From NCBI RefSeq assembly GCF_002214505.1, contig NZ_CP015103.1:930001-994000 (forward strand): a stretch of DNA of 64,000 nucleotides, in the 5' to 3' direction. Under the pieces are notes generated by a model that was not told where the DNA came from, ran no database searches, and saw nothing but the letters and a program-made list of their open reading frames with translations. Position numbers and translations under genes: made by a program. Below, piece after piece: positions 6,640 through 54,035 of this stretch; the first letter of the stretch is position 1, and every line of letters begins with the position of its first letter. This DNA comes from Thermococcus siculi (GTDB taxonomy: Archaea; Methanobacteriota_B; Thermococci; Thermococcales; Thermococcaceae).

Positions 6640-6718
6640 ACACCCAGAACAACTTTAGAAGGAGCTGCAAACTCTATCAAACTTTTGCTTGACTCTCAAG
6701 GCTTTGCTCAGAAAATTG
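6640..6718 (-). repeat. degenerate copy of the tRNA-downstream element
   Basis: Read on the minus strand downstream of tRNA-Gly, the sequence AGCAAAAGTTTGAT followed by AGTTTGCAGCTCCTTCT aligns with the segment behind tRNA-Leu (AGCAAAAGTTTGATC, AAAGTTCGTAGCTCTTTCT). A partner arm GGGGCTGCGGG may pair with GCAGCTCC. It is much shorter and less regular than the two full elements at 7059-7297 and 53669-53910. Confidence 0.4.
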
Positions 6719-6796
6719 TGGTGCGGTGGCCGGGATTTGAACCCGGGCCAGCGGCGTGGCAGGCCGCTGTCCTAGACCAGGCTAGACTACCACCGC
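6719..6796 (-). tRNA. tRNA-Gly (anticodon GCC)
   Basis: Minus-strand cloverleaf: acceptor GCGGTGG pairs with CCACCGC, discriminator A, and CCA is encoded (6719-6721). The anticodon stem GCGGC/GCCGC holds the loop CTGCCAC with anticodon GCC. The T arm contains GGTTCAAATCC. No intron. The TATA element is at 6831-6840. Confidence 0.95.
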
Positions 6797-6830
6797 ATTC
6801 CGCGACTCGTTACATACTCACCTCCGGTCG

Positions 6831-6840
6831 CTTTATAAAT
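6831..6840 (-). promoter_or_regulatory. TATA element of tRNA-Gly
   Basis: ATTTATAAAG on the minus strand, 35 bases before the mature 5' end. The same 12-base string ATTTATAAAGCG recurs on the plus strand at 6865 for the divergent tRNA-Arg. Confidence 0.65.
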
Positions 6841-6864
6841 CTTTCGGTGAGCTGAGACGGTTAA

Positions 6865-6874
6865 ATTTATAAAG
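6865..6874 (+). promoter_or_regulatory. TATA element of tRNA-Arg
   Basis: ATTTATAAAG on the plus strand, 29-38 bases before the mature tRNA. It forms a divergent, near-identical promoter pair with the tRNA-Gly gene. Confidence 0.65.
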
Positions 6875-6902
6875 CGTCCCCGAGAATGGTTAGCTGGCAG
6901 AT

Positions 6903-6980
6903 GCCCCGGTGGCCTAGTCTGGATAGGGCGCAAGGCTGCGGACCTTGAGGTCCGGGGTTCAAATCCCCGCCGGGGCGCCA
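6903..6980 (+). tRNA. tRNA-Arg (anticodon GCG)
   Basis: Acceptor GCCCCGG pairs with CCGGGGC, followed by discriminator G and an encoded CCA. The anticodon stem CAAGG/CCTTG encloses CTGCGGA with anticodon GCG. The T arm has GGTTCAAATCC. No intron. Confidence 0.95.
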
Positions 6981-7058
6981 TTCTAACAAACTTCGCCTGC
7001 GCGACGTTGAAGCTCTGCTTCAACGCACGGGACGATAGTCCCGTTGAGTTTGATCAAG

Positions 7059-7297
7059 GTTCGTGGTTCTTTTTTGGGATGCCAAAATGCAGGAGGATTC
7101 CTTTTATAGGCTGTTTTTAGTTTGAATTCTCCCGTTAATGTCTTTTCCAGGGAGTTCCTCCCTTTTTGACGCTCTTCAAGCGTCGGTTAAAATTTGAACT
7201 CTTTCCAAAATGCCTTAGTGAATTGAACTCAAAGCTTAATCTGGAGTTCCTTAGCTCTGAATCCCATTAAAGACCAAACCTCGCAAGAACCACGAAC
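7059..7297 (+). repeat. tRNA-downstream structured element, copy 1 (239 bp)
   Basis: Bounded by a perfect 13-base inverted repeat, GTTCGTGGTTCTT at 7059-7071 and AAGAACCACGAAC at 7285-7297. It contains a central hairpin GACGCT-CTTCA-AGCGTC at 7168-7184. The flanks TTTGATCAAG (left) and TTTCGGTGAAGCTTTTTC (right) also match the copy at 53669-53910. The stretch between tRNA-Arg and udp (6981-7356) holds this element, preceded by two small hairpins (ACGTTGAAG...CTTCAACG and ACGGGAC...GTCCCGT), and no gene. Confidence 0.7.
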
Positions 7298-7356
7298 TTT
7301 CGGTGAAGCTTTTTCAGACGTTTCCTTAGCAGGACGTTGAAAATAAAAATAAAACA

Positions 7357-8190
7357 TCAACCCCTAAGACCAGGGAACCAGACCTCCTTGCCCTTCCGCT
7401 CCTTCTCCTCGTCCCACTCGGCGAGTATCTTAACGGCCTCGCTCGCAACCAGCGCCGCCTCCTTCTCCCCGGCCTTTCCGAACTCGTTGGTGACCCTGTT
7501 GGCGAAGACTGCGCAGACGCATCCAGCTCTTAATCCGTAGATGTTCGCCAGCGTGTAGAGCGTGGCAGCTTCCATCTCGAAGTTCGTGACGTTGGCCTGT
7601 CTGAGGTCGTCCATTATGTTTCTCGCGAAGCTCGGGAAGTAGCCGTTCAATCCCGGCCTGCCCTGACCGAGGTAGAAGCTGTCGGTTGAGGCAGTTATTC
7701 CCATGTGGTAGGGAATCCCTAGGGTTTCCGCAGCTTCCACTAGGGCGAGGGTGACCTCGAGGTCGGCAACGGCCGGATACTCAACGCGGACGTACTGCTT
7801 TGAAGTGCCTTCGAGTCTAACGGCTGCCCTAGCTATTATCAGGTCCCCTATCTCCATTCCCGGCTGTATCGCCCCGGTCGAGCCGACGCGGATGAAGGTG
7901 TCAGCCCCAATAGCTGCAAGCTCCTCGACGGCTATGGCTGTCGACGGGCCGCCGATTCCGGTGGAGGTCACGGTGATTGGAACGCCTTTATACTTTCCGG
8001 TGTGCGTCCTGTACTCGCGGTGAAACGCTATCTCCCTCGCCTCGTCCCAGAGGGAGCTTATCTTCGGAACCCTCTCAGGGTCTCCGGGAAGGAGAACGTA
8101 CCTTGAAACGTCGCCGGGCTTGCAGGCTATGTGGTACTGGTAGCCCTCCTCCGTCTGGGGCCTCTCGGCTGAAACGAACTTCTCTCCCAT
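7357..8190 (-). CDS. udp: uridine phosphorylase
   Basis: A 277-residue nucleoside phosphorylase of the NP-I/PNP-UDP family, releasing uracil and ribose-1-phosphate from uridine in pyrimidine salvage. Seen: YVLLPGDPERVPKI (phosphate site), VTSTGIGGPSTAIAVEELA, FIRVGSTGAIQPGM, and TNFEMEAATLYTLA with the ribose-binding MEAATL. The ATG at 8190 follows GGTGG and gives the expected start; an in-frame extension to 8235 adds residues not expected for the family. A TATA-like CATAAAAAGG sits unusually close to this ATG, so the exact start is less certain. Divergent from the threonine synthase gene. Confidence 0.92.
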   Translation of the reverse strand: MGEKFVSAERPQTEEGYQYHIACKPGDVSRYVLLPGDPERVPKISSLWDEAREIAFHREYRTHTGKYKGVPITVTSTGIGGPSTAIAVEELAAIGADTFIRVGSTGAIQPGMEIGDLIIARAAVRLEGTSKQYVRVEYPAVADLEVTLALVEAAETLGIPYHMGITASTDSFYLGQGRPGLNGYFPSFARNIMDDLRQANVTNFEMEAATLYTLANIYGLRAGCVCAVFANRVTNEFGKAGEKEAALVASEAVKILAEWDEEKERKGKEVWFPGLRG

Positions 8191-8260
8191 GGCAACCACC
8201 TTTTTATGCTCCTGTGCGTTAGTTATTCCCATCACAGCCTAAAAACCCTTGGGTGGTACC

Positions 8261-31632: not shown

Positions 31633-31659
31633 GCGGGGTAGACCCGCGGGATGTTCCCG
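31633..31659 (+). promoter_or_regulatory. tandem hairpins in the L15e leader
   Basis: GCGGG (31633-31637) pairs with CCCGC (31643-31647), and CGGGA (31647-31651) pairs with TCCCG (31655-31659). They sit between the promoter and the AGAGGTGA ribosome site. Possible autoregulatory leader; no match to a known RNA is claimed. Confidence 0.35.
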
Positions 31660-31695
31660 TAAGGGAGAACCACAAACTGGGAAGAGGTGAACGAG

Positions 31696-44762: not shown

Positions 44763-44826
44763 GGCGCCCGATGATTGGAACAAGAGTGAGCTGATGGGTG
44801 ATGACCGACTTCTCGCTGAGGGCGCC
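44763..44826 (+). ncRNA. box C/D guide sRNA
   Basis: All parts of an archaeal C/D sRNA occur in order: terminal stem GGCGCC (44763-44768), C box CGATGA (44769-44774), first guide, D' box CTGA (44791-44794), four-base spacer, C' box TGATGA (44799-44804), 11-base guide CCGACTTCTCG (44805-44815), D box CTGA (44816-44819), G, and stem GGCGCC (44821-44826). By the N+5 rule the D guide would direct 2'-O-methylation of an A within CGAGAAGUCGG, and the D' guide a C within CUCACUCUUGUUCC. Targets in rRNA or tRNA were not verified. Confidence 0.8.
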
Positions 44827-52814: not shown

Positions 52815-53498
52815 ATGGAGGAACTTAAGAGGGCCGTTGCTAGGGAGGCCCTGAAGTTCATCGAGGACGACATGGTTGTGGGCCTCGGAACCGGCTCAAC
52901 GACGGCCTACTTCATCGAGTACCTCGGCAAGCTCATAATGGAGGAGGAGCTGGAGGACGTCTATGGCGTTCCAACCTCGTATCAGTCCAGAATGCTCGCC
53001 CTTGAGAACGGCGTCCCGGTGGTGGGCCTCGACGAGGTCGACGCGATAGACATAGCCGTCGATGGAGCGGACGAGGTCGATCCCCATCTCAACCTCATAA
53101 AGGGCCGCGGGGCGGCACTTACGATGGAGAAGATAATCGAGTATCGCGCCGGAACCTTCCTGGTTCTCGTTGACGAGAGCAAGCTCGTCGAGAGGCTTGG
53201 CCAGAAGATGCCCGTCCCGATAGAGGTTATCCCCGCCGCCTGGAGGGCCATAGCAGAGGAGATAGAGGTCTTCAACGCGACGGCGGAGCTTAGGATGGCG
53301 AGCAAGAAGGACGGGCCGGTGGTTACCGACAACGGCAACTTCATTCTCGACGCGAGGTTCCACCGCATTGAGGATCCCCTCGACCTGGAGATAGAGCTGA
53401 ACAACATACCCGGCGTCGTCGAGAACGGCATCTTCGCGGATATAGCCGACGTGGTTCTCGTTGGGACCAGAGAAGGCGTCAAGAGGCTCGAGCGCTGA
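52815..53498 (+). CDS. rpiA: ribose-5-phosphate isomerase A
   Basis: 227 residues interconverting ribose-5-P and ribulose-5-P. Seen: VGLGTGSTTAYFIEYLGKL (phosphate site), DIAVDGADEVDPHLNLIKGR with catalytic Asp residues, GAALTMEKIIEYRAGTFLVL, DESKLVERLGQKMPVPIEV and VTDNGNFILDARF. ATG 52815 follows GGGGTGATGGT. In Thermococcales it feeds ribose-5-P synthesis from the RuMP route. Confidence 0.95.
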   Translation: MEELKRAVAREALKFIEDDMVVGLGTGSTTAYFIEYLGKLIMEEELEDVYGVPTSYQSRMLALENGVPVVGLDEVDAIDIAVDGADEVDPHLNLIKGRGAALTMEKIIEYRAGTFLVLVDESKLVERLGQKMPVPIEVIPAAWRAIAEEIEVFNATAELRMASKKDGPVVTDNGNFILDARFHRIEDPLDLEIELNNIPGVVENGIFADIADVVLVGTREGVKRLER

Positions 53499-53640
53499 AA
53501 CTTTGCCTTCACAAAGTTTTGTCAAAGTTTGTGATCCCTTTCCGGCCACTTTTATTTTTGTGTTATTCTAAGGGCAGATTTCTTTGAAAAGCTGGACGCT
53601 CTCACCACGGAGCAAGTGAGTAAAAACCCGTTTTGGAATT

Positions 53641-53664
53641 GAAGCTTTTAGAAAAAGCTTCACC
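53641..53664. repeat. hairpin GAAGCTTTT-AGAAAA-AGCTTC at the outer edge of tRNA-downstream copy 2
   Basis: Arms pair as GAAGCTTTT with AAAAGCTTC, loop AGA. It lies five bases outside the 242-bp element; copy 1 retains half of it (GGTGAAGCTTTTTC at 7302-7315). The rest of 53499-53640 shows no gene. Confidence 0.55.
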
Positions 53665-53668
53665 AAAA

Positions 53669-53910
53669 GTTCGTAGCTCTCCCCAAAATGCTGATTCAGG
53701 CCAGTTTTAACTTTCAAAACGCTCCTTTTTAAATCAGGAACTTTTTAATGGGTGCTCTACTCATGGGGTTTGCTTTCTACTGACGCCCGAAGGGCGTCTT
53801 TTTAGTGTAAACCCCTTTAGAACAAGCTCTTGTGGGGGGTTCTCGTCCAAAATGAGCTAGTTCAAGCGGAAAAACTCCTTATGAATGCACTCTAAGAAAG
53901 AGCTACGAAC
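53669..53910 (-). repeat. tRNA-downstream structured element, copy 2 (242 bp)
   Basis: Bounded by a perfect 12-base inverted repeat: GTTCGTAGCTCT at 53669-53680 and AGAGCTACGAAC at 53899-53910. The central hairpin is GACGCCC-GAA-GGGCGTC (53782-53798). Read on the minus strand from tRNA-Leu, order, size and spacing match copy 1 at 7059-7297: the hairpin begins 112 bases in versus 109, and length is 242 versus 239. Arms and hairpin differ from copy 1 by paired changes. Confidence 0.7.
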
Positions 53911-53916
53911 TTTGAT

Positions 53917-53941
53917 CAAACTTTTGCTTGGCAAAAGTTTG
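53917..53941 (-). terminator. hairpin directly behind tRNA-Leu
   Basis: CAAACTTTTG and CAAAAGTTTG are perfect 10-base arms with a CTTGG loop, six bases after the tRNA CCA on the minus strand. It could be a transcription end or 3' processing signal. Confidence 0.5.
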
Positions 53942-53947
53942 TTGTTG

Positions 53948-54035
53948 TGGTGCGGGGGAGGGGATTTGAACCCCTGAACCCCTGCGGGAGTGGATCTTGA
54001 GTCCACCGCCTTTGACCAGGCTCGGCAACCCCCGC
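53948..54035 (-). tRNA. tRNA-Leu (anticodon CAA)
   Basis: Minus-strand class II tRNA: acceptor GCGGGGG pairs with CCCCCGC, discriminator A, and CCA encoded (53948-53950). The anticodon stem GTGGA/TCCAC holds CTCAAGA with anticodon CAA; a long variable arm (TCCCGCAGGGG) follows, then GGTTCAAATCC. No intron. TATA element at 54071-54080. Confidence 0.95.

Follow-up and report, generated by a model that had tools for sequence, protein, structure and literature searches.

Dyad-symmetric, hairpin-bounded DNA units with periodic, covarying rungs at the 3′ borders of small RNA genes in Thermococcus

Behind a tRNA-Arg gene and a tRNA-Leu gene of Thermococcus siculi lie two similar non-coding stretches with matching inverted ends, and the question they raise is what kind of element such a stretch represents: a structured RNA linked to the tRNA, a module for processing tRNA 3′ ends or for termination, or a mobile element that resides at tRNA flanks. 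All three possibilities had been put forward in an original prediction. The window, that is the whole stretch of 64,000 nucleotides that was analysed, corresponds to G000:C1:930001-994000 of the T. siculi genome (G000, 2.03 Mb in a single contig). The two copies, predicted to be 239 and 242 bp long, are present in it with the expected sequences, coordinates and tRNA neighbours, the second one on the minus strand (Table 1). Their ends read GTTCGTGGTTCTT...AAGAACCACGAAC in copy 1 and GTTCGTAGCTCT...AGAGCTACGAAC in copy 2, and at the two positions where these ends differ between the copies both partners are altered, as had been claimed. The central hairpins, GACGCTCTTCAAGCGTC and GACGCCCTTCGGGCGTC, are likewise distinguished by a paired change, and the flanks said to be held in common, TTTGATCAA and GGTGAAGCTTTTTC, occur at both copies. 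The description of the interior as otherwise diverged holds for the loops and fails for three further segments that are mirrored between the two arms at fixed spacing, some of which are weak in copies 1 and 2; such mirrored segments are referred to below as rungs. Compared with shuffled sequences, copy 2 together with its linkers folds with z = -9.5 and copy 1 with z = -3.3.

Table 1. Features at and around the two copies, in window positions.
Feature	Position	Strand	Partner or basis
Linker remnant, 3′ side of divergent tRNA-Gly (GCC)	6657-6691	-	blastn G000:936657-936691, E 5.6e-4
tRNA-Arg (GCG), anchor of copy 1	6903-6980	+	ARAGORN, Rfam RF00005
Long linker 3′ of tRNA-Arg	6986-7052	+	fold z -4.4
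Copy 1, whole ladder unit, TTTGATCAA-type ends included (inner part 7059-7297)	7049-7307	+	
Copy 1 rung 1, left, GTGGTTC	7063-7069	+	
Copy 1 rung 1, right partner, GAACCAC	7287-7293	+	
Copy 1 rung 2, left, GGATTC	7095-7100	+	GAATCC 7259-7264
Copy 1 rung 3 (weak), TTTGA	7121-7125	+	TCAAA 7229-7233
Copy 1 rung 4, left, GAGTTC	7152-7157	+	GAACTC 7196-7201
Copy 1 central hairpin, GACGCT-CTTCA-AGCGTC	7168-7184	+	
Convergent gene facing copy 1, phosphorylase-superfamily protein	7357-8235	-	
Convergent gene facing copy 2, ribose-5-phosphate isomerase A	52815-53498	+	
Degenerate remainder of another unit, from copy 2 towards the convergent gene	53509-53639	.	
Copy 2 distal linker hairpin, TGAAGCTTTTTC..AAAAGCTTCA type	53640-53662	-	
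Copy 2, whole ladder unit (inner part 53669-53910)	53659-53920	-	
Copy 2 central hairpin, GACGCCC-TTC-GGGCGTC	53782-53798	-	
Copy 2 rung 4, GGGGTTT	53809-53815	-	53765-53771
Copy 2 rung 2, AGTTTT	53871-53876	-	53703-53708
Copy 2 rung 1, tRNA-proximal arm, AAAGTTCGTAGCTCT	53899-53913	-	53666-53680
Short linker hairpin CAAACTTTTGCC-AAG-CAAAAGTTTG, tRNA-Leu to copy 2	53918-53942	-	
tRNA-Leu (CAA), anchor of copy 2	53948-54035	-	ARAGORN, Rfam

The units are non-coding, dyad-symmetric DNA cassettes with a layout of hairpin, ladder and hairpin. Units of class A have a narrow size distribution of 245-275 bp with a mode near 260 bp, the TTTGATCAA ends included. When the left arm of a unit is matched against its own right arm, identity is seen only at five short rungs and stays at background level between them. 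A unit carries four to five rungs of 6-8 nt each, separated by stretches of about 24 nt that lack pairing, and the rungs are positioned 0, 19, 49, 80 and 111 nt from the central loop, with spacings of 31.5, 31.0, 30.1 and 16.6 nt. The linkers are hairpin structures in their own right: behind tRNA-Arg, a CAAACT...AGTTTG stem encloses three small hairpins (CGCCTGCGCG; GACGTTGAAGC..GCTTCAACG; ACGGGACGATAGTCCCGT), and this type of long linker recurs within 1.2 kb on the 3′ side of other tRNA genes. The degenerate remainder beyond copy 2 contains an end motif with three mismatches at 53517-53537 (genome 983517-983537). At the far boundaries of units no duplicate of a tRNA 3′ end is present, these far ends being formed by hairpins and by TGATGAAAC/GGTGAAGC motifs. 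An origin inside a tRNA gene was considered and rejected, as the units contain no tRNA fragment.

Other unit classes, with the centres GCGCCC, GCGTCC and GTGCCC, have four rungs. Further classes, also with four rungs, are located at G000:367400-367691, 1056308-1056550 and 1519300-1519596 and in the related loci L299 and L305; their ends are GCGCTGGCGGAA, GAATGTCC/GGACATTC, GCATGC or GTACGTGC, and they stand alone or are mixed into arrays with class A units. In three loci of related species (L033, L034 and L035) tRNA-Lys is followed either by a short linker or by a linker with a precise insertion of about 45 bp that comprises two hairpins.

The pairing of the rungs is conserved far beyond the two starting copies, and the claim of a tRNA-linked family with covarying ends and a covarying central hairpin proved to describe a real and widespread family. 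In a set of 140 units freed of redundancy, rung 1 matches its partner at position 17 in 138 cases, at position 18 in 135 and at position 19 in 134, where about 72 would be expected; three large subfamilies (GGT, GAT and AGC) inflate these raw counts, and the minor types (GAC, GGC and AGT) are also mostly matched. In the same set, positions 14 and 22-26, which lie beside rung 1, match about as often as expected, and a single helix running along the whole arm was rejected on this ground. Compensatory base changes, which a structured RNA family should show, are present: within an alignment of 36 units the terminal and central helices yielded 53 double-change cells, compared with 19.5 after shuffling and with one to six in slid controls. 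Since rungs 2-4 fall out of register when mixed subfamilies are aligned with MAFFT, pair counting was limited to these helices, and the inner rungs were assessed by matching within each single unit. For rungs 2-5, a match with the partner in the same unit is more frequent than a match with other members of the subfamily, the values within and between units being 0.80 and 0.50 for rung 2 and 0.85 and 0.51 for rung 4. In an analysis of mutual information the structural pairs fall on the mirror diagonal and none fall in the loops, the other high-scoring pairs following the subfamilies. Related units have diverged by 6.5% in the rungs compared with 29.5% in the loops, a 4.5-fold difference that is slightly biased by the choice of rungs according to their match in one member.

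Within the T. siculi genome the units are almost confined to one kind of place. The end motif TTTGATCAARGYTYGTRRYTC, allowing up to two mismatches and scanned over nearly the whole genome, has 16 matches, every one of them behind the 3′ end of a tRNA gene (two of these genes, tRNA-Trp and tRNA-Met, both with an intron, were recognised by eye); a shuffled genome contains none. The suggested enrichment behind tRNA genes is thus evident, and the recurrence of the ends at these sites is more than chance. Unit ends nearest to the tRNA begin mostly 22-28 or 62-71 nt behind it, and exact parts of units (centres, long linkers and distal hairpins) fall nearly always within 1.2 kb on the 3′ side of tRNA genes, a space that makes up 2.7% of the genome. 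By the author's reading, units or their variants follow 19 of the 46 tRNA genes, the remainder, more than half, having no unit. They occur singly or in tandem arrays with a spacing of about 270 bp, such as three units after tRNA-Trp, two between the convergent Arg and Val tRNA genes and two between the convergent Thr and Pro tRNA genes. A ladder detector that requires a centre hairpin and at least two mirrored rungs, and that makes no use of the end motif, found units at 12 of the 46 tRNA 3′ flanks compared with none of the 46 5′ flanks.

The family extends through much of the Thermococcaceae. With up to one mismatch the end motif was found in 67 of 94 genomes of this family, the reversed-pattern control being near zero, and the objection that related genomes might hold no further copies falls away. 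Within the genus of T. siculi the majority of genomes carry the motif, none of nine genomes of genus g9 has it, and the named genome records that contain it are nearly all from Thermococcus or Thermococcales. Two matches outside Thermococcales within the genome collection, in Aminicenantes and Colwellia MAGs, are probably due to chance or to binning errors. In G010 (2,088,737 bp) about 30 end motifs were counted, and 16 of 30 sampled tRNA 3′ flanks bear some mark of units. Applied to a same-genus genome without the class A end motif, the ladder detector reported units at 10 of 30 tRNA 3′ flanks compared with 1 of 30 5′ flanks. In one genome of genus g9 none of the 30 tested tRNA genes has a unit, and the ladder units are therefore dispensable.

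The surroundings of the units were surveyed in 80 regions from eight genomes, chosen by the end motif alone. A tRNA 3′ end lies within 1 kb in 65 of them, at distances that are quantised by unit length (22-28, 250-290, about 320, 480-515 and 800 nt). The other 15 regions comprise five behind a conserved H/ACA-like sRNA, two behind the C/D sRNA sR36, three behind truncated tRNA halves beside an integrase-like gene, one behind an mRNA gene and four that have no clear neighbour. As units are also linked to sRNA genes, their address is the 3′ border of genes for small stable RNAs in general, of which the tRNA genes are one kind. The H/ACA-like sRNA (L190:1361-1432 and G000:1296683-1296786) ends in ..CCCCCTTACA, is directly followed by units in several genomes, and has no Rfam match at the gathering score. 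In L260, L286 and L288, of which L286 is the weakest case, the 3′ half of a truncated tRNA gene adjoins an integrase-like gene and is followed by an array, which places these arrays where integrated elements are attached. A rare case away from RNA genes is seen at L310:1520-1600, where half a unit starts right at the stop codon of an mRNA gene whose product, judged from its C-terminal residues, looks like asparaginyl-tRNA synthetase.

Comparison of orthologous loci revealed presence and absence of units as well as rearrangement around them. tRNA-Leu-GAG is followed by two units in G017, and in T. siculi by a short, degenerate flank; at G000:901479 and at the sR36 flank T. siculi retains a solo hairpin where relatives have whole arrays; and the H/ACA sRNA is followed by units in relatives and by none in T. 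siculi. Leu-GAG is the one clean pair of filled and empty sites, and its empty site is degenerate rather than pristine. The Arg/Gly tRNA pair beside copy 1 (window 6712-7002) is inverted in G008 and in two further loci, the outer flanks being unchanged relative to each other and the breakpoints falling in linker hairpins (the loci compared were L031 and L182 against L032, L177 and L184). Across 24 of 55 arrays the gene order of the T. siculi genome is not kept, compared with 2 of 110 flank pairs in which synteny is broken, a comparison between spans of different length that was made without array-free tRNA genes as a control, so that the tRNA genes themselves may be the breakpoints. Some copies have been inherited in place, among them copy 1 in G008 (86% identical) and the units at tRNA-Lys in G001, G011 and G013, and since these are vertically inherited at orthologous tRNA genes, movement of units is slow at best. 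The proposal of a non-autonomous mobile element at tRNA flanks agrees with the presence and absence, the solo hairpins and the rearrangements, and mobility itself may be the process behind them; recombination at the hairpins could have caused the rearrangements.

Which molecule folds bears on the suggestion of a structured non-coding RNA that would be co-transcribed with the tRNA and freed by tRNA 3′ processing. Strong folding, compensatory changes, a site directly 3′ of RNA genes and conserved hairpins at the junction all speak for such an RNA. If it were selected, G.U pairs should be in excess over A.C mismatches on the tRNA strand; the counts are 43 G.U and 53 A.C, which gives no sign of a selected tRNA-strand RNA, and the antisense strand folds equally well (mean z of -5.2 and -4.8 for the two strands compared with shuffles). 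Moreover, near 85 °C little stability would be expected of helices of 6-8 bp that are split on both sides by unpaired loops of about 24 nt. A search with Rfam 15 at gathering scores over the window, its flanks and the regions of relatives placed no family over the units, and the main text of a transcriptome paper on T. kodakarensis mentions no such transcripts (PMC4247193). Within the window, Rfam recognises the C/D sRNA sR58 at 44767-44821 and an eL15 ribosomal-protein leader at 31633-31676. Constraint on the rungs thus looks to be at the level of DNA, and the sequences suggest that DNA is what folds or pairs, unless the two strands are of equal importance; the claimed non-coding RNA family is accordingly an unlikely reading of the units. 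A general role in tRNA 3′ processing is also unlikely, more than half of the tRNA genes of T. siculi and all 30 of those tested in the g9 genome having no unit.

The reading to which most weight is given, with a confidence that stops just short of even, is that the units are recombinogenic cassettes, non-autonomous and built as hairpin, ladder and hairpin, which sit where small RNA genes end at the 3′ side. Such cassettes would be gained, lost, duplicated into arrays and reshuffled through recombination at the flanking hairpins and the unit ends, and the rungs would be kept because one DNA strand must fold back at some step, be it replication, extrusion or transfer. Folding as single-stranded DNA, and any enzyme that acts on the cassettes, would be parts of this scheme. 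It fits best because it accounts for the location, the modular hairpin-ladder-hairpin build, the scars and the rearrangements. Against it stand a purifying selection on the rungs that is stronger than a decaying MITE would need, and the facts that neither a transposase nor an integrase or other recombinase nor an autonomous partner came to light and that a target-site duplication was not seen, the one empty site, at Leu-GAG, being degenerate. A serious rival, if a rather improbable one, is that the units act as bidirectional terminators of transcription, or as insulators, where highly transcribed small RNA genes end: polymerase arriving from either side would meet a T-rich arm first, so that tRNA transcripts and convergent mRNAs are both stopped and the dyad serves both directions. 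Runs of five or more T in the arm met first are enriched on both strands of 115 units (81 compared with 52, and 89 compared with 58, expected from shuffling), the two strands are equivalent, the units are placed where RNA genes end, sRNA genes among them, and in T. siculi a convergent neighbour is found for 12 of 19 unit-bearing tRNA genes compared with 7 of 27 without a unit (p = 0.016). However, tRNA genes internal to operons cannot host units, which alone biases this convergent count, the enrichment of about 1.5 times amounts to only some 0.7 such runs per arm, the many tRNA genes that lack units have to be explained, and a terminator has no need of rungs that are matched base for base in a sequence particular to each unit.

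Two further explanations carry less weight. An element of chromosome architecture or a roadblock, consisting of a dyad that is either bound by protein or extruded and has a phase of three helical turns, would absorb supercoils, block replication forks or anchor nucleoid proteins near highly transcribed RNA genes. On both arms the rungs follow one another at 30-31.5 nt, which is near three helical turns, and the dyad symmetry, the lack of strand bias and the position beside strongly transcribed genes are as this model would have them; a fixed binding protein, however, would select fixed rung sequences and not matching pairs specific to each unit, and the model is considered improbable, to nearly the same degree as the non-coding RNA. 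That the units are the decayed ends of an ordinary insertion sequence, i.e. plain MITE debris, is disfavoured and very improbable. Inverted ends, size, arrays and patchy presence would be in keeping with debris; the narrow size distribution, the 4.5-fold lower divergence of the rungs and the near-exclusive site at RNA genes are not, and neither are the searches of plasmid and phage collections, which returned no match to units, the single motif match in a viral contig having no unit around it.

Returning to recombinogenic cassettes, a wider proposal can be ventured, tentatively and with more doubt than belief: that a new genetic element is at hand, in the form of gene-less, hairpin-bounded ladder cassettes that address the 3′ ends of stable-RNA genes family-wide and work by single-strand folding, with rungs of 6-8 nt every 31 nt registering the two arms, and that these cassettes are also the recombination sites of the frequent Thermococcus inversions that end at tRNA genes. 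Cossu et al. report that inversions end at tRNA genes which resemble each other too little to recombine (PMC5495485). The ladder units are a candidate for the missing shared sequence at these end points. A large share of Thermococcus tRNA 3′ borders carries elements of which no description was found, in a literature search that reached a minority of the subscription journals, and the rung pattern is directly testable in a genetically tractable archaeon.

The general kind to which the units belong, that of intergenic palindromic or MITE-like repeats, is known, and the units lack several of the features by which the nearest families are defined; for the periodic, covarying rung pattern we know of no precedent. 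Like MITEs, ladder units are short and non-coding, have inverted ends, exist in many diverged copies and are patchily present. MITEs, however, have terminal repeats only, along with a target-site duplication, a transposase and an autonomous parent, none of which was found for ladder units, which have terminal inverted repeats and in addition multiple rungs under purifying selection and a restriction to the 3′ borders of small RNA genes. The bacterial REP/BIME and ERIC sequences are similarly intergenic, palindromic mosaics of hairpin modules that often lie between convergent genes. A relation in sequence is not expected, and they are set apart from the archaeal ladder units, which are much longer, have a rung period of 31 nt, covary and are tied to tRNA and sRNA genes; the general dispersal over intergenic regions that is typical of REP/BIME was not seen. 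Elements of Thermococcales that target tRNA genes (pTN3/TKV-type, with an SSV-type integrase) share with ladder units the use of tRNA genes as an address, whereas ladder units include neither a tRNA fragment nor an integrase and start a few nucleotides after the tRNA instead of inside it. The tRNA-linked non-coding RNAs and dicistronic tRNA-sRNA genes, such as Tko-sR44 with tRNA-Arg (PMC4247193), also lie directly 3′ of the tRNA; ladder units differ in showing no sign of selection on an RNA strand and are not C/D or H/ACA guides. Integron identity was dropped for the ladder arrays. Their resemblance to the attC cassette arrays of integrons, which have tandem cassettes with foldable hairpin sites between them and are anchored at one end, is one of layout, ladder units having no ORFs.
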